Part shown: positions 18,151-62,289 of the stretch, one piece after another
Position numbering within the stretch: position 1 is the first letter of the stretch
How the letters are laid out: every line of letters starts with the position of its first letter
From: Thermoplasmatales archaeon
Lineage (GTDB): Archaea; Thermoplasmatota; E2; UBA202; JdFR-43
NCBI GenBank assembly: GCA_014361195.1
Contig: JACIWA010000001.1
Coordinates: forward strand, 62,001 to 126,000
Reading direction: 5' to 3'
DNA length: 64,000 nt
Translations under genes and position numbers: made by a program
Notes under the pieces: model-generated
Told to the model about the DNA's origin: nothing
The model's input: only the letters and a program-made list of their open reading frames with translations
The model's database searches: none

Positions 18151-18199
18151 GAAATAAAAGGCATGGGGATATAAAAATATATCTCTTAAGTTGATGCAG

Positions 18200-18904
18200 A
18201 AAATTTTAACTCAGTTGTTATCAAAAGGATGAAAAATGAAACAAAGATGATATGCTGGAAGGATAAAAAACCTGAGAAGTGAAAAGGTTTCGATTGAGTT
18301 ATTTCGCTTTAGAATGTTGCCTAGCATAGATAGTTTGCTAATAAATGACAGGCATCTTTTCTTGGGCACCATCGGTTGGAGAACTGTAAGTGGAAAACCT
18401 GAATTATGTGGAGGACAGATATCACATTTTTATTATCCGCGGGATCCTGAACATGAATGTTATTTCCATTGTTTAAAACTTGGTTTGAATTGGCAAAAAA
18501 GAAAGAGTGGAAATAACTTTGCCTGAAGACTTCGACAAGTTCTTGAAATATCGATATCGTCGAGAGAGGAAAAGCTGAGGCTTCAGCATTCAAGATTGGA
18601 GGAGAGGAGATATTATCATATTTGGTTCATGAAGGAGTGAAAATCGCCATAGTAAATGGGAAAGAAAGGATATATATTTCTTGTGGAAGATGAAATTGAA
18701 AAAGCCGAGTCTAAAGTTAGATGCTAAGGGCTTCACTGGAGCAGACATATTTGGTGCAACTTTTTAGCAATATATATGGATAATCTCACTGTGAGGAAGG
18801 CTATAAAATTCGCATCAATATCTGCGGGATTAAAGATAAGATACATAGGATTGGAAGGATTTCCAACAAGAGAGGAAATATTGAGCTATGCCACACAGAT
18901 TTAA
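18200..18904 (+). pseudogene. PfkB-family sugar kinase, decayed
   Basis: The clear part starts near 18572 with KAEASAFKIGGEEILSYLV followed by KIAIVNGKERIYIS. It continues in another frame as KLDAKGFTGADIFGATF, the remnant of the PfkB catalytic GAGD motif, now lacking residues. A third frame then gives VRKAIKFASISAGLKIRYIG and GFPTREEILSYATQI up to a stop. At least two frameshifts and a small deletion in the active site show the gene is dead. Upstream, 18200-18570 holds only broken frames (FLGTIGWRTVSGKPELCGG is one island) that may be its N-terminal part, but I cannot align them. It sits directly left of the cassette array. Confidence 0.65.
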
Positions 18905-18997
18905 CGCCTTAATATTAAGGTACGGAAGAGGAATTATTGGGAGTGGCTTCTGGGCAACGCTTCATCGCTTCGCTCCTCGTCCTCACTTTGTTCGGGT

Positions 18998-19085
18998 TAT
19001 ATAACACTGGCTATACGGCTCAGCCACTTCATGGCTTTGCCCAAATTGCCTTTAGCAACTTCACTTACCCATCAGCCGTTAAGCG
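18998..19085 (+). repeat. attC-like site 1
   Basis: The left core is TATATAAC and the right core GTTAAGCG. Inside them, GGCTATACGG (from 19009) can pair imperfectly with the segment before the right core (CCCATCAGCC). An internal AGCC-loop-GGCT hairpin adds further pairing. It shares CCTTTAGCAACTTC with the site at 23693-23755. This is the weakest of the sites by pairing. The 93 bp to its left (18905-18997) contains CGCTTCATCGCTTCGCTCC-like sequence but no gene that I can recognise. Confidence 0.45.
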
Positions 19086-19103
19086 ACATTGCAAAACCAA
19101 AAG

Positions 19104-19113
19104 TATTTAAATA
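19104..19113 (+). promoter_or_regulatory. TATA-like box inside the aspartic protease cassette
   Basis: TATTTAAATA lies about 38 nt before the ATG at 19147 and would give a leader of about 13 nt containing GAGGG as a ribosome-binding motif. It lies after the cassette core, so the cassette carries its own archaeal-type promoter. Confidence 0.4.
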
Positions 19114-19146
19114 TGCAACACTTAAAAATATAAAAGAGGGAATTAA

Positions 19147-19680
19147 ATGGAAAAGGTGATAGAGAAGGTTAGGCTTACAAGTTTGTTTGATCCAGCAAAG
19201 TCAATCGAAGTAGAAGCAGTTATTGATACAGGAGCAACGATGCTCGTTCTACCTCAAAATATCATTGCCGAACTCAATCTGAAAAAGATGAGAGAGGCAA
19301 GAGTAAGATACGCAAATAACAAAACGGAGATTAAATCAGTCTACGGTGTTGTAACTGTCGAAATGTGCGGAAGGGCGGGCGAGTTCAATGTTTTGGGAGA
19401 ACCAGAAGGCACTCAACCTCTTGTGGGGCAAATAGTGCTTGAGCAATTAGACCTCATAGTTGATCCCAGCACGAGAAAGGTTATTCCTAATCCAAGATCG
19501 CCTGAAATGCCGATGGTTGAAATACTTATGGCAACAGCGTATAATAGCGGAAAAGACTTTCGTCCAAACCTAAGGACTTCTTTTATCCGCGAAACGTTAG
19601 GCGAAATGCTCGCTCGAAACTTAAGCAAAAGGGGCTTTCAAAATGACTTACACACAATCCAAGATCAAAGTGATTCTTGA
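19147..19680 (+). CDS. Retropepsin-like clan AA aspartic protease
   Basis: The 177-residue protein has the retropepsin-like motif EAVIDTGATMLVLP near residue 30 and the later GQIVLEQLDLIVDPSTRKVI. These are typical of the small prokaryotic clan AA proteases of about 125 residues, which probably act as dimers on unknown substrates. Family members usually end near PNPRSPEMPMVEIL. Here the frame runs on for about 50 more codons through the attC-like site 2 and overlaps the next gene by 38 nt. The tail is therefore probably encoded by the recombination site, acquired when cassettes were joined. The start has GAGGG 8 nt upstream. Confidence 0.75.
   Translation: MEKVIEKVRLTSLFDPAKSIEVEAVIDTGATMLVLPQNIIAELNLKKMREARVRYANNKTEIKSVYGVVTVEMCGRAGEFNVLGEPEGTQPLVGQIVLEQLDLIVDPSTRKVIPNPRSPEMPMVEILMATAYNSGKDFRPNLRTSFIRETLGEMLARNLSKRGFQNDLHTIQDQSDS
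19538..19603 (+). repeat. attC-like site 2
   Basis: The outer cores are CGTATAAT and GTTAGGCG. Inside, GCGGA-AAAG (19547-19555) pairs with CTTT plus TCCGC (19580-19590), with a small bulge. A central GTCC (19562-19565) pairs with GGAC (19574-19577) around an 8-nt loop. The right arm ACTTCTTTTATCCGC is the same as at 20802-20815 and nearly the same at 23730-23743. It lies within the 3' end of the aspartic protease frame and about 40 bp before the CPBP start. Confidence 0.65.
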
Positions 19681-20470
19681 GGTCTTTTTTGTTTTCCTTG
19701 TAACCTTTCTGATCATTTGGGCTATGCAAATTCCACTATTAGGCGAGTGGAAAAGTCGCGTTTTGCAGCGGCCTTTCCTAGAGTATGCCGTGATGATTGC
19801 CATGCCTTCGGTTTTTCTATTAGTGACTCGAAGGAACTTCGCTGCCTACGGGATTTCGTTTAAGAATCTCAAGTATCATTTGGACGTGGTATTGACGTGT
19901 TTCCTCCCTGTGGCGGTGTCCTGTGTGCCATTTGCCTTTCTAAATTGGACGCGATGGGACGGCGCATTGCTCTTGGCGGTGATAGAGTTGGCGGTACTCT
20001 TTGCAATAGCATGGATGTTAAGGAACAAGCCCACTGCGAGCAATCTGGGTACCATCAGTGCGTTCTCATTCCTTCTGCTTGGCATTTCGCCATCATTGGG
20101 ACCGATGATTGGAAAAGCGTCTTCAGCTTTCATCTTCTACTTTGCGTTTCTCGGCCCTGGTGAGGAGATACTGTTTCGGGGTTACATCCAGTCACGACTA
20201 AATGAGACTTTTGGTCGTCCTTACCGCTTTTTCGGCGTGAATTGGGGCTGGGGAGTAGTCATTACCTCTCTGATCTTCGGATTTATGCATGTTTTGAATC
20301 ACTTCAATCCATTCTTAGGGAATTTCGAGCTGATGTGGTGGTGGGGTCTTTGGACGTTTTTCAGCGGGCTTGTCTATGGATTTATCCGAGAGAAGACCGG
20401 CAGCGTCGTGGCTCCAGCCATCCTGCACGGATTACCGCAGGCGATTGCATATGCATTTCTGGAGTTGTAA
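19643..20470 (+). CDS. CPBP-family intramembrane metalloprotease
   Basis: The 275-residue membrane protein is a member of the CPBP (Abi/CAAX prenyl protease-like) family. The glutamate motif is GPGEEILFRGYIQSRL, the second motif is FGFMHVLNHFNP and the third is HGLPQAIAYAF near the end, all in the expected transmembrane helices. About eight hydrophobic segments are visible. Bacterial members process bacteriocins or act in immunity; the role here is unknown. The gene is visibly richer in G+C than the core genes, which points to transfer. It starts about 40 bp after the attC-like core. Confidence 0.8.
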   Translation: MTYTQSKIKVILEVFFVFLVTFLIIWAMQIPLLGEWKSRVLQRPFLEYAVMIAMPSVFLLVTRRNFAAYGISFKNLKYHLDVVLTCFLPVAVSCVPFAFLNWTRWDGALLLAVIELAVLFAIAWMLRNKPTASNLGTISAFSFLLLGISPSLGPMIGKASSAFIFYFAFLGPGEEILFRGYIQSRLNETFGRPYRFFGVNWGWGVVITSLIFGFMHVLNHFNPFLGNFELMWWWGLWTFFSGLVYGFIREKTGSVVAPAILHGLPQAIAYAFLEL

Positions 20471-20502
20471 TTACACGGGTTCACCCCTTGGCTCGCACTA
20501 TC

Positions 20503-20828
20503 GCCAAACAGCGGATAAAAGGCATCGCTACGCTTCGCCCAAATCCAGCCCTCTATACGTATGCATTATGTAAACATTTTGAAAAACAATAGGACAGAAA
20601 GGATTTACATAGGTTACACCAAAGACATAGAAAGAAGGTTAGTTGAACATAAGAAAAAAGATGTTGATATAGAATTGGTGTACTACGAAGCTTACAACAA
20701 TGGGAAACAAGCACAACTAAGGGAAAGAAGGTTAAAGTTGTATGGTAGTGCTTGGCGAGGATTAGAAAGGAGGTTAGGATTATAGCGCTTAGAGGGCTGG
20801 GCTTCTTTTATCCGCAAAACGTTATACG
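20503..20828 (+). repeat. attC-like site 3/4 split by a GIY-YIG gene
   Basis: The left half begins with GCCAAAC, then GCGGATAAAAG (20511-20521) and CCAGCCCTCTA (20545-20555). The right half has TAGAGGGCTGG (20790-20800), CTTTTATCCGC (20805-20815) and the core GTTATACG (20821-20828). Both 11-nt pairs are exact inverted repeats. The two halves therefore form one recombination-site-like palindrome whose loop contains a 225-bp gene. The stem is longer and better matched than in the other sites. Confidence 0.65.
20561..20785 (+). CDS. Small GIY-YIG nuclease domain protein
   Basis: The 74-residue protein is a stand-alone GIY-YIG domain. HYVNILKNN stands for the first (GIY-like) strand and RIYIGYTKDIERRLVEHKKK carries YIG and the catalytic Arg. 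ELVYYEAYNNGKQAQLRERR has the Glu-bearing helix region, and the end is short. Such small domains are common in bacteria and archaea and are thought to be nucleases, but most are uncharacterised. The gene lies entirely inside the loop of the palindrome at 20503-20828, with 5 bp or less between either end and the inner stem. No promoter is evident. Confidence 0.8.
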   Translation: MHYVNILKNNRTERIYIGYTKDIERRLVEHKKKDVDIELVYYEAYNNGKQAQLRERRLKLYGSAWRGLERRLGL

Positions 20829-20859
20829 CAATCAGCCTCGGGGCGCTATTTTAGAAATA

Positions 20860-20869
20860 TTTTTATACA
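20860..20869 (+). promoter_or_regulatory. TATA box in the ParB cassette
   Basis: TTTTTATACA is centred about 27 nt before the ATG at 20892, which suits a leaderless archaeal transcript. It lies between the cassette core and the first gene. Confidence 0.5.
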
Positions 20870-20891
20870 TTTAACTTTTGTATCTGTTATC

Positions 20892-21692
20892 ATGGAAGTA
20901 AAAGAAATAAAACTAGACGACATTAATTTATCAGAATTTAATACTCGTAAAGATTTAGATGCTGGAACTGAAGATACAAATCTTGATGATTTAGCTAATA
21001 GTATAAAAGAGAAGGGACTGCTGAATCCTATAATAGTTATGAAAAGACAAGACGGAAAGTATGATTTGATTGCTGGTCAAAGACGATTTCTTGCGTGTAA
21101 AAAACTCGGATGGAAAACCATTCCTGCTATCATAAGAGACAAATTAGATGACACAGACGCTACAATAATATCACTCGTTGAAAACGTACATAGAGCCGAT
21201 ATGAACCCTGTTGATAAAGCAAGAGCATATCAAAAAATTTATGAGAAATATAAAGATTATAATAGAGTTGCCAAAGAAACAGGTGTATCGATTTCTACAA
21301 TCAAGAAATATTTAGCACTTCTTAATCTTGCGCCTTCGATATTAGAAAAACTAACAACCGCTGAGGGGCCAGCTGGTATTAGTACTTTATCAAAACTAGC
21401 TGAAACTTTCTCACCAGAAGAACAAGAAGAGGCGCTTGAAGAAATTAGCGGATTTAAACAAAATATACAACTTGAACTTATAAAAAGAAGTGGCGGTGAT
21501 TTGAATAAATTATCAGAATTGAGAGAACAAGCCCTTGAGGGAGCTTTTGATACCCATCTTTGTCGAAGTATTGATGAATGTCCATTCATTCCAAAAGAAT
21601 TAATACCTTCAGTCAAAGATGCTATAAAGAAATTTAAGGAAGATGAACAACCGCTGAAAGAAGTTATCAAAAAATTAAAGTGGAGATGGTAA
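20892..21692 (+). CDS. ParB/Spo0J-family DNA-binding protein
   Basis: The 266-residue protein has the ParB N-terminal domain with SEFNTRKDLD, then LIAGQRRFLACKKLGW (the GxRR CTP-binding type motif) and ENVHRADMNPVDKA. A helix-turn-helix follows (RVAKETGVSISTIKKYL). The C-terminal third is not one I recognise and has CRSIDECPFIPKELIP. ParB proteins are CTP-dependent DNA clamps. No ParA is present, so classic partitioning is unlikely. The next gene starts one base after the stop, so the pair probably forms one cassette with one function. Confidence 0.8.
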   Translation: MEVKEIKLDDINLSEFNTRKDLDAGTEDTNLDDLANSIKEKGLLNPIIVMKRQDGKYDLIAGQRRFLACKKLGWKTIPAIIRDKLDDTDATIISLVENVHRADMNPVDKARAYQKIYEKYKDYNRVAKETGVSISTIKKYLALLNLAPSILEKLTTAEGPAGISTLSKLAETFSPEEQEEALEEISGFKQNIQLELIKRSGGDLNKLSELREQALEGAFDTHLCRSIDECPFIPKELIPSVKDAIKKFKEDEQPLKEVIKKLKWRW

Positions 21693-21693
21693 A

Positions 21694-22674
21694 ATGGCTA
21701 TTTTGTATCTCGATGTAGAAACTTTCTCTGATGGAGAATTCAAATTTGGTAACACAAAAATAATTTCAATTCAAGTTCAATATGAAGACAATAATGGAAG
21801 GATCAATATTTCGAAAGAATGGAAGGATGGAGAAGAACAAATATTGAAGGGTTTTTACGAGTATCTGAAAAATCTCCTCCAAACTGGGGATGTAACGATT
21901 ATAGGTCATAACCTGCTTAGATTTGATATTCCAATGTTAATTCATAGAATGGCTCATAATAATATTGATTCTTATGAAAACTTAATGGATTTATTTCACA
22001 ATTTTTTTGTAATAGATAATATGCAGTGTTCATTACCAGAATTCAAATTTAAAGGACTCGGTGCCGAAGAGGAAAAACGGTTTATTTTGTATCTAGATAT
22101 AGAAACTTTCTCTAAGAGAAAAAAATTCAAATTTGGTAACACAAAAATAATTTCAATTCAATATAAACGTAGTAAGGGAAAGCTCAATATTTTGAAAGAA
22201 TGGAAGGTTGGAGAAAAACAAATATTGAAGGATTTTTACGATTATCTGAAAAATCTCCTCCAAACTGGGAAAAGTGTAACGATTATAGGTCATAACCTGC
22301 TTAGATTTGATATTCCAATGTTAATTCATAGAATGGCTCATAATAATATTGATTCTTATGAAAACTTAATGGATTTATTTTTTCACAATATTTTTATAAT
22401 AGATACTATGCAATGTTTATTACCATTTAACAAATTCAGATTTAAAGGACTCTGTGCCGAAGAATTAGCTAAAAAATTGAAAATAAGCAAACCAAAATAT
22501 AAAAACTCCGAAATCCCAGATTTTTACAAAGGAAAAGAGTTCAATAAAATAGAAGAACATATAATTGCTGATATGAAGTTCATAAAAGATTTATGGCGGA
22601 TATTAACAAAAGAGCCGGATAAATTAAAATTATTATTAACAGAAGAGCCGGATAAATTAAAATTGTTAAAATAA
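21694..22674 (+). CDS. Tandemly duplicated 3'-5' exonuclease-like (DEDD, RNase H-fold) protein
   Basis: The 326-residue protein holds two copies of one domain. Each has the exonuclease I motif (YLDVETFS, YLDIETFS) and motif II (IIGHNLLRFDIPML). Only the second copy continues to a motif III-like segment (EEHIIADMKFIKDLW), so the first is probably truncated. Copy spacing is 128 codons, and 106 bp are identical between them, so the duplication is recent. The C-terminus ends in two copies of an 11-residue EPDKLKLL unit. Related domains occur in predicted family B polymerase-type exonucleases. It is paired with ParB. Confidence 0.7.
   Translation: MAILYLDVETFSDGEFKFGNTKIISIQVQYEDNNGRINISKEWKDGEEQILKGFYEYLKNLLQTGDVTIIGHNLLRFDIPMLIHRMAHNNIDSYENLMDLFHNFFVIDNMQCSLPEFKFKGLGAEEEKRFILYLDIETFSKRKKFKFGNTKIISIQYKRSKGKLNILKEWKVGEKQILKDFYDYLKNLLQTGKSVTIIGHNLLRFDIPMLIHRMAHNNIDSYENLMDLFFHNIFIIDTMQCLLPFNKFRFKGLCAEELAKKLKISKPKYKNSEIPDFYKGKEFNKIEEHIIADMKFIKDLWRILTKEPDKLKLLLTEEPDKLKLLK
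21891..21996 (+). repeat. First copy of 106-bp perfect direct repeat
   Basis: The sequence from TGTAACGATTATAGG to GGATTTATTT is identical to 22275-22380, 384 nt downstream. It is the best conserved part of the duplicated exonuclease domain. Confidence 0.9.
22275..22380 (+). repeat. Second copy of 106-bp perfect direct repeat
   Basis: This is identical to 21891-21996. The flanking parts of the two domain copies have diverged by substitutions and small indels that keep the frame. Confidence 0.9.
22611..22664 (+). repeat. 33-nt tandem duplication at the 3' end of the exonuclease gene
   Basis: AGAGCCGGATAAATTAAAATT occurs at 22611 and again at 22644, giving two EPDKLKLL units just before the stop codon. 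Confidence 0.85.
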
Positions 22675-22714
22675 ATTTCGGTACCCCTCAATTGACTTTC
22701 TCCTTGTCTCATTC

Positions 22715-22774
22715 GTTGAACCCCTTGCACTTTCAGTCGCTTCGCTTCTTCAAAGCGCATAATAACGGTTAGTA
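22715..22774 (+). repeat. attC-like site 5
   Basis: The left core is GTTGAAC and the right core GTTAGTA. TGCACTTT (22726-22733) pairs with AAAGCGCA (22752-22759) with one mismatch, around a loop with TCGCTTCGCTTCTTC. The arm differs from the CTTTTATCCGC type, so this site may come from another array. It follows the exonuclease gene by about 40 bp. Confidence 0.5.
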
Positions 22775-22793
22775 GAAATTCACTCCACCTCAC

Positions 22794-23585
22794 CTATCTA
22801 AATTTAAGAGAACCTGTGTGTTTAAAATAAATCTTAATTGGTTTATTGAACTTTTTACTTAATTCTTTAATCTCCTTTTCTTTTTCAAACCAAAATTCCT
22901 TTGATAAATTCCTGTATTTATCTTCCAACTCAGGAAAATTCTTTTTTATCGCTTCAAAAACTTCTTTTCTACATTGATTCAAATTCAAATCCTCAAAAAT
23001 AAACAAATCAACAAATGGAGAAACTTTCTTAAAAATCTCTTCCAAATCTGTTAAATATGGGAAAATTGGACCAACAAAAACATAGGTATAAAATCCTTCT
23101 TGTTTCAATTTCTTCGAGTTTCCAATCTTGCATCTGAATTTGGAAAAAACAGCTCAAATACTTTTTTGATATTTTCATCTAAAGTTGTTATTGTCGAATC
23201 TAATTCTATGTTTTTGAAGCATTTGAATAAATCATGTCTCGTGTGATTAAATCGGATTTCGTTAAAATTGATAATTTTAGGTTTGGATTTAAGTTTTGAA
23301 GAAATTTCCTTGTTAATTGGTATTTTTATCGATTGGTTGGTATGCATCTCCACCATTGCATAAGATAGCTGTCCCTTCTTTATCTTTGCTTTCCTTGACA
23401 ACCAATTCAGGTGCATTTATTTTTACATCGACAAATCCACCCCATTTTTCTTTTTGTTTCCTCCATCTACAAAGAAATTTTAGATAACAATAAATGCACC
23501 TATGAGTACAACCACGATAATAATTAATGCCCCAATCTGCACCAGGAATTTTGGTTTATTACACTTCTTGCTTTTACTTCTTATA
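22794..23585 (-). pseudogene. Radical SAM protein (SPL-like, COG1533 type), decayed
   Basis: Read on the reverse strand, fragments in successive frames give EVKARSVIN, then IPGADWGINYYRGCTHRCIY, whose CxxxCxxC binds the 4Fe-4S cluster, and WGGFVDVKINAPELV. Further on come STITTLDENIKKVFELFFP and then YTYVFVGPIFPYLTDLEEIF with DLFIFEDLNLN. This is the full order of a roughly 290-residue radical SAM protein of the spore photoproduct lyase-like group. At least three frameshifts break it. Unlike the other cassette genes it lies on the reverse strand, between two attC-like sites. Confidence 0.75.
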
Positions 23586-23657
23586 TTTTAACCATACCTA
23601 AGAATAGATAAAAGATGCATTTAAATTATACCATTTCGGGGCGAGGCTTCGTGAACT

Positions 23658-23678
23658 CAAAATTTCTACGAAATTTTG
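23658..23678. repeat. Perfect 9-bp stem hairpin
   Basis: CAAAATTTC and GAAATTTTG flank a TAC loop. It lies just left of the attC-like site 6 and may be part of that site's neighbourhood or a terminator. Confidence 0.6.
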
Positions 23679-23692
23679 GTGCTATCGCACTC

Positions 23693-23755
23693 GCACAACA
23701 TTGGATAAAAGGCTTCCTACCTTTAGCAACTTCTTTTATTCGCAAAACGTTATAC
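23693..23755 (+). repeat. attC-like site 6
   Basis: The left core is GCACAAC and the right core GTTATAC. TTGGATAAAAGG (from 23701) pairs with CTTCTTTTATTCGCAA before the right core, with a bulged C and A. The centre has CCTTTAGCAACTTC, shared with site 1. This is the right end of the array. The next 145 bp up to the PorA promoter contain short open pieces but no gene that I can support. Confidence 0.65.
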
Positions 23756-23929
23756 ATCATTTCGATTTGTGCTAAAAAAGTGATTAAAGCCATGTTATTC
23801 AAATCACCCTGAAAGAGTTTGGAAATTTCGCATTGAAAGAAAGCAGTAAAGTAATGAAAAAACAGCCCTTTTAATGGAAAAAGGGAGATTTCTCTCCTGA
23901 AATGCTTTTGCTGAAAAAACCCTTAAATG

Positions 23930-61648: not shown

Positions 61649-62289
61649 ACCTCTAACTTCTTTTGCTTTATCTTTTCAAGAGTTTTCCAGCTTTTCCTCG
61701 TATAAGGAGGAAATTTATTAAACCTGTTAAACCATTCTCTTATAAATTCTATTGTTTTTTCATCGCTTGGATAACCACTTCCAAGTGGTTTATTCAGCAC
61801 TTTTTCCAGCTCCTCAGATATTTTTTTAATTTGTCTATCCCTTTCAACCTTTGCAACTATTGAAGCTGCAGAGCAAACAGCATATTTTTCATCCGCCTTA
61901 TGCTCACATACAATTTCGCAATCATATTTTAAATTCTTTTTAAACATCTCACCAAATTCCTTGCTATCATTTCCCGCAGAATCTATGAAATAAACTTTCG
62001 CAAAATTTTTATTTGCAACCTTTGCAAAAACATATGCTTCAAGCTCGTTAATTGTCAATGTTTTCCTCAGGTCATCTATATCCCTTGCTTCAATCACAAC
62101 AATCTCATGAACAAAATTATCCCTTATATAGGATGCAATTTTCTCCCTCTTGCTCGGAGTAAGCTTCTTTGAATCCTTAACTCCCGCCCCCAAAAGCTTC
62201 TCCTCATCTTCTTCCTCAATCCATACACCCGCAACAACCATTGGCCCAATAACCGGGCCCCGTCCCGCTTCATCTATCCCGCATATCAT
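61645..62289 (-). CDS. rnhB: Ribonuclease HII
   Basis: The 214-residue enzyme cleaves RNA in RNA-DNA hybrids and ribonucleotides in DNA. The catalytic DE is in ICGIDEAGRGPVIGPMVVAG, and further acidic residues are in YFIDSAGND and SAASIVAKVERDRQI. The C-terminal GSGYPSDEKTIEFI is typical. It is convergent with the transketolase operon and overlaps the EndoQ gene by 4 nt. Confidence 0.95.
   Translation of the reverse strand: MICGIDEAGRGPVIGPMVVAGVWIEEEDEEKLLGAGVKDSKKLTPSKREKIASYIRDNFVHEIVVIEARDIDDLRKTLTINELEAYVFAKVANKNFAKVYFIDSAGNDSKEFGEMFKKNLKYDCEIVCEHKADEKYAVCSAASIVAKVERDRQIKKISEELEKVLNKPLGSGYPSDEKTIEFIREWFNRFNKFPPYTRKSWKTLEKIKQKKLEV

Follow-up and report, generated by a model that had tools for sequence, protein, structure and literature searches.

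A probable integron cassette array without a recombinase gene in a Thermoplasmata chromosome, and IntI-related recombinases lacking the additional domain in its relatives

Introduction

How did genes of unrelated function, set apart by imperfect palindromes, come to stand in a row in an archaeal chromosome, and what kind of recombinase could have placed them there? The question is raised by positions 18945–23757 of the window, the 64,000-nucleotide stretch of DNA analysed here (positions 62001–126000 of contig C1). It belongs to a 1.25-Mb genome of 39 contigs that is 96% complete and whose closest named relative by RpoA'' is Thermoplasmatales archaeon JdFR-43 (78%). The original prediction read the interval as an integron-like cassette array with archaeal flanks and no integrase gene, and pointed to earlier reports of such arrays from archaea. 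Such reports exist: archaeal integrons and CALINs, that is, cassette arrays without a recombinase, have been described by Ghaly et al. 2022 (PMC9668308). The main text of that article does not mention Thermoplasmatota, and in its methods the additional domain both defines integron integrases and serves to search for them.

Results

Compared by blastn with a congeneric genome (G003), the array lies within an insertion, in place of which 13 bp stand in G003. The flanks match G003 with 82.8% identity on the left and 82.3% on the right. The left neighbour is a lipoprotein gene, itself downstream of topoisomerase VI B/A and Tsr3, and the right neighbour is a PorA-like gene. No read-coverage data were available; the two-sided synteny argues against a chimeric contig. 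As judged by this comparison, the window array is an insertion into an archaeal (Thermoplasmata) chromosome, and the predicted archaeal setting is thus confirmed. The features of the insertion are as follows.

18190–23929, no strand: whole insertion relative to G003, which has the empty site between the lipoprotein gene and the PorA-like gene
18211–18905, plus strand: decayed coding remains with broken frames only, which look kinase-like by eye and probably represent a first cassette truncated on the left
18999–19084, plus strand: attC-1, R'' ATATAAC, R' GTTAAGC (R1 41.6 bits, E 5e-7)
19147–19680, plus strand: retropepsin-like aspartyl protease cassette gene (PF13975, 4e-7)
19537–19602, plus strand: attC-2, degenerate R'' GTATAAT, R' GTTAGGC (R1 match 19531–19602, 28.9 bits, E 7e-4)
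19643–20470, plus strand: CPBP/Rce1-like intramembrane protease cassette gene (PF02517, 9e-18)
20503–20551, plus strand: 5' half of attC-3, R'' GCCAAAC, arm GCGGATAAAAGG, loop motif CGCCCAAATCC, stem CCAGCCCTCT
20561–20785, plus strand: GIY-YIG nuclease gene, 74 aa, in the apical loop of attC-3 (PF01541, 2e-8)
20789–20827, plus strand: 3' half of attC-3, stem AGAGGGCTGG, GCTTC, arm CTTTTATCCGC, AAAAC, R' GTTATAC
20892–21692, plus strand: ParB-like nuclease/HTH cassette gene (PF02195, 3e-24)
21694–22674, plus strand: cassette gene with a tandemly duplicated 3'-5' exonuclease domain (PF10108, 1e-8)
22794–23600, minus strand: frameshifted remains of a cassette gene, radical-SAM-like by eye, reversed in the array
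23693–23755, plus strand: attC-4, the last site, R'' GCACAAC, R' GTTATAC (R1 40.9 bits, E 8e-7)

A comparison of the insert with 390 Thermoplasmatota genomes gave intergenic-site matches in several families, and inspection of these loci revealed arrays with clear attC sites. The sites were modelled with R1, a covariance model built from a full-length alignment of 12 attC sites of other Thermoplasmatota and containing no window sequence. From R'' to R', the layout common to the 12 sites runs through a single base (nearly always A), a 12-pair arm, a loop containing CCCAAAT, CTTC accompanied by two unpaired T, the second arm and about five further bases. The pairing covaries, with 43 two-sided changes in the 12 sites (0.481 versus 0.171 when shuffled, 0/500) and 260 two-sided change cells in 81 sites. 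R1 is not fully independent of the window, since some training sites were found by likeness to the insert; those in L162, L163, L166 and L190 were reached through the recombinase instead. Its E-values are rough. Over 331 kb, R1 matched neither the G003 flanks nor any of seven bacterial class 1 integron regions, and in 142 kb of the present genome it matched five window stretches and one site in a second array, with nothing else. A generic attC grammar of core boxes and arm energy was discarded, as it could not separate AT-rich sites from background.

The attC covariance-model search that the original prediction proposed thus matched window sites, by our own model, exclusively within the predicted interval. 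Four attC sites were recognised, with gaps of 0.45, 0.9 and 2.9 kb; this satisfies the CALIN criterion of two or more attC sites spaced by less than 4 kb, and the further criterion that no integrase gene lies nearby is also fulfilled. Five sites had been proposed. Four attCs stand, the candidates at 20.5 and 20.8 kb being halves of one attC, and the candidate at 22.7 kb (GTTAGTA, near 22.75 kb) is unsupported, having no match by R1. The arm said to be shared by three sites is an exact repeat: the arm and core TTCTTTTATYCGCNAAACGTTR occurs in three copies without mismatch, all inside the interval, and elsewhere in the 1.25-Mb genome it has only a single match, with 3 mismatches. Sites homologous to attC-1 were found in G002 (77%), G006 (87%) and G036 (92% over 48 bp), and attC-2 overlaps the end of the aspartyl protease frame.

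By our model, the window sites meet the attC consensus structure of R''/R' boxes, L''/L' arms and extrahelical bases, and the unpaired TT of the L' arm is conserved in the alignment. R'' and R' do not pair perfectly in attC-2 and attC-3, and for two window attCs the bottom-strand folding energy is not significant compared with shuffled sequences (z −1.3 and −1.0). Because the folding energy is weak for these two sites, the case rests on homology, covariation and a rule concerning cassette starts. If the crossover of cassette circles falls between G and TT, a cassette's R'' is expected to be more complementary to the R' at its own start than to the R' that comes after it. Among 34 consecutive cassettes, 105 R'' positions matched the start R' versus 68 expected (0/10,000 shuffles), and R'' matched the start R' perfectly in 19 of the 34 versus 8 with the cassette's own downstream R'. 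Since R1 scores the pairing with the downstream R', the model is biased against this result. The rule is clear in the relatives and only partly visible in the window. Such a match is the mark of recombination of cassette circles between G and TT; this evidence is indirect and comes from relatives, and excision and capture are inferred.

The two halves of attC-3 were matched separately by R1 (20503–20571, 15.0 bits, E 2; 20777–20827, 22.6 bits, E 0.026). Between them lies the GIY-YIG gene, bordered by a perfect 10-bp stem at the place where attC hairpin 2 normally sits. When the halves are joined, the conserved columns agree with those of 8 other attCs, and the bottom strand folds with an MFE of −18.3 (z −4.2). 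On the strength of the column match and the fold, we read the stretches at 20.5 and 20.8 kb as one split attC and dropped the alternative of two independent degenerate sites. We infer that the nuclease gene was inserted into the apical loop of attC-3, in the single case seen.

The original prediction of unrelated functions between the sites is borne out by the Pfam families of the cassette genes. The aspartyl protease has a paralogue in the second array (59% identical), a homologue of the ParB-like gene is followed by an attC in G356 (L182, 6888–6975), and the radical-SAM-like remains have a homologue in G009 (L181; 83% identical) that adjoins an attC. The decayed remains at 18211–18905 have no Pfam match and no homologous DNA at the G003 site. 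A search of plasmids and viral contigs gave no relatives of the protease or GIY-YIG cassettes; a pattern match in one viral contig (L138) was a chance match within a phage structural gene. Within the exonuclease gene, window 21699–22463 contains two tandem copies with 87% DNA identity, a recent duplication.

No integrase gene was found in the window, as predicted. The original prediction had also proposed looking for an IntI-type recombinase elsewhere in the genome, and the genome-wide TIGR02249 search gave only a 58-residue C-terminal stub on another contig, C2. The stub lies about 120 bp past nusA, inside a 3.6-kb insertion that is absent from G003, so that G003 has the empty sites of both arrays of this genome. 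The second array follows the RNA polymerase operon rpoB-rpoA'-rpoA''-L30e-nusA in the order stub, attI-like palindrome, HNH cassette, second aspartyl protease and ThaI-type restriction-modification cassette. We dropped the stub as proof of an IntI, as it is closer to recombinases without the IntI additional domain (58–65% identity) than to IntI1 (42%); a stub of 58 residues cannot tell whether the domain ever existed in the recombinase of this genome. An intact recombinase with a TIGR02249 match, even XerA, is absent from this 96% complete genome, and 14 of 14 control genomes gave a match.

R1 detected attC sites in 53 of 370 Thermoplasmatota genomes and in 42 of 153 genera, including genomes named Aciduliprofundum sp. 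S145_39 and DHVE2 archaeon S143_98. One cassette between two attCs spans 6 kb (L252, 5548–11633, G079:C1) and has four genes, including a HerA-like and an SMC-like ATPase gene. An IS110-family transposase gene (L177, 4900–6018, G002:C30) adjoins an attC that has no R'' side, as if inserted there. Defence cassettes include Dsr1 (L264, 1806 bits), a TmtA-like protein (L177) and the ThaI-type restriction-modification pair of the window's own genome (L002, 18153–19749), which suggests that archaea exchange such genes as cassettes.

Eight arrays adjoin a tyrosine recombinase gene, either in a co-oriented layout with an N-terminal extension of the protein (L162, L163 and, in part, L166) or in a divergent layout, with proteins mostly of about 270–300 residues (L252, L253, L254, L264 and L190). 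At most of the eight, not all, an attI-like site was recognised; in several, an attI-like palindrome followed by GTT lies between the recombinase and the first cassette. An attC lies within about 5 kb of 8 of the 17 recombinases in the array clade, compared with 0 of 25 others (Fisher 2e-4). In the tree, the array recombinases and IntI are split from Xer with support 100/99, so that membership in the housekeeping Xer clade is not met; the same split was obtained with 14 more integrases (92/84). Only four bacterial IntI were included in the trees.

The array recombinases have the tyrosine recombinase domain with R..K..HxxR..Y (PF00589, 5e-44 and 3e-45), and the IntI-specific additional domain of about 40 residues is absent. 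The distance from box II to HxxR is 55–60 residues, compared with 99–100 in three IntI and 59–66 in Xer, and the TIGR02249 match breaks at about 173–233. Their total TIGR02249 score is 222–225, against a cut-off of 265 that no protein in the 390 Thermoplasmatota genomes passed. The archaeal XerA model NF040815 gave 238 and 239 bits against a cut-off of 220. At locus L201 of G047, a single-contig genome, a recombinase and an attI-like site were found with no cassette by R1, possibly an empty integron.

Discussion

We consider it highly probable, from sequence evidence alone, that this locus is an integron cassette array without a recombinase, and that an IntI relative lacking the additional domain acts on such arrays in the phylum. 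The attC model matches, the insertion and the lack of an integrase all support the predicted integrase-less reading; recombination itself is inferred. Each cassette would have entered as a captured circle, with an attC that would fold into a hairpin on the bottom strand. A tyrosine recombinase would cut the GTTRRRY core between G and TT, and an attI-like site, where GTT follows a dif-like palindrome, would be the point at which the circle joins the array. In the phylum, this enzyme would be the domain-less IntI relative, of which only the C-terminal stub at the second array appears to be left in the present genome. Because only the stub is left, the window array is probably now static unless a recombinase acts from elsewhere.

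An ordinary IntI with the additional domain might instead have moved the attCs, the adjacent domain-less recombinases acting otherwise, for example as XerA on dif. Archaeal IntIs with the domain are reported (PMC9668308), the L162 protein is called archaeal XerA above the NCBIfam cut-off (238 vs 220 bits), and the attI-like sites resemble dif palindromes. This explanation, which we regard as unlikely without dismissing it, must contend with the lack of any Thermoplasmatota protein above the IntI cut-off in the genomes searched, with the adjacency of the recombinases to arrays and their grouping with IntI and not Xer, and with a palindrome followed by the very GTT core at which the first cassette begins. 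The array could also be bacterial DNA brought in by misbinning or a chimeric contig, as integrons are mainly bacterial and coverage data are lacking. This is very improbable and already largely refuted by the synteny of both flanks with the empty site in G003, the position of the second array behind an RNA polymerase operon, the same attC type in 53 of the 370 Thermoplasmatota genomes, including a single-contig one, and the lack of R1 matches in the seven bacterial class 1 integron regions. A reading of the repeats as dispersed palindromes, such as terminators or MITEs, with unrelated insertions between them can hardly be entertained: palindromic, AT-rich sites, some with weak folds, would fit it, but terminators or MITEs would not be expected to show fixed R''/R' boxes, to follow the cassette-start rule or to have attI-like sites and IntI-related recombinases beside them, and the R1 matches in this genome are confined to its two arrays.

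The window array, read as an integron cassette array, appears to be a further case of the known archaeal arrays; what would be new is the system with a domain-less IntI-related recombinase. Insofar as the accessible text of PMC9668308 describes them, the archaeal integrons and CALINs are alike in that attCs separate unrelated cassettes in an archaeal chromosome, the integrase is usually undetected, and attI follows the integrase gene on its downstream side, an arrangement shared by the co-oriented type of Thermoplasmatota arrays. They differ in that their IntIs had to match a profile of the IntI-specific domain, a region that the Thermoplasmatota array recombinases do not have. Bacterial IntI (class 1 IntI1; PDB 2A3V) is likewise a tyrosine recombinase, falls in the same tree clade, is the best PDB match and shares the GTTRRRY cores, but its stretch from box II to HxxR is longer by about 40 residues. 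Archaeal XerA (NF040815; PDB 5HXY, 4A8E) resembles the array recombinases in domain make-up, core length and a dif-like palindrome target, whereas the housekeeping Xer of the same phylum forms another clade and has no neighbouring attC. Group IIC introns and IS1111-type elements insert in attC. Like them, the insertion in attC-3 is mobile DNA within an attC hairpin; unlike them, it consists of a lone GIY-YIG gene in the apical loop and leaves both arms intact. Introns associated with integrons are treated in PMC7923331.

IntegronFinder 2.0 reported zero integrons in complete archaeal genomes (PMC9024848), whereas the single-contig genome G079 holds both attC sites and a recombinase. As IntegronFinder calls IntI by means of the additional-domain profile, it would probably not call domain-less recombinases. 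In the open-licence literature searched for XerA with integrons or archaeal integrons in Thermoplasmata, we found no report of such a recombinase type. The evidence leaves us evenly divided on whether Thermoplasmatota have a distinct integron class, with a recombinase that lacks the domain held necessary for attC recombination, that may be older than bacterial IntI and is hidden in many "integrase-less" archaeal arrays. If domain-less related recombinases act on arrays, this would explain why most archaeal arrays seem integrase-less, and the origin of integrons would become testable by asking whether attC recombination preceded the additional domain. At two loci from two families (L264, G002:C6; L190, G356:C55), the divergent recombinase stands beside topoisomerase VI subunit A, as at the window array, and this shared neighbourhood may mark an old integron locus.
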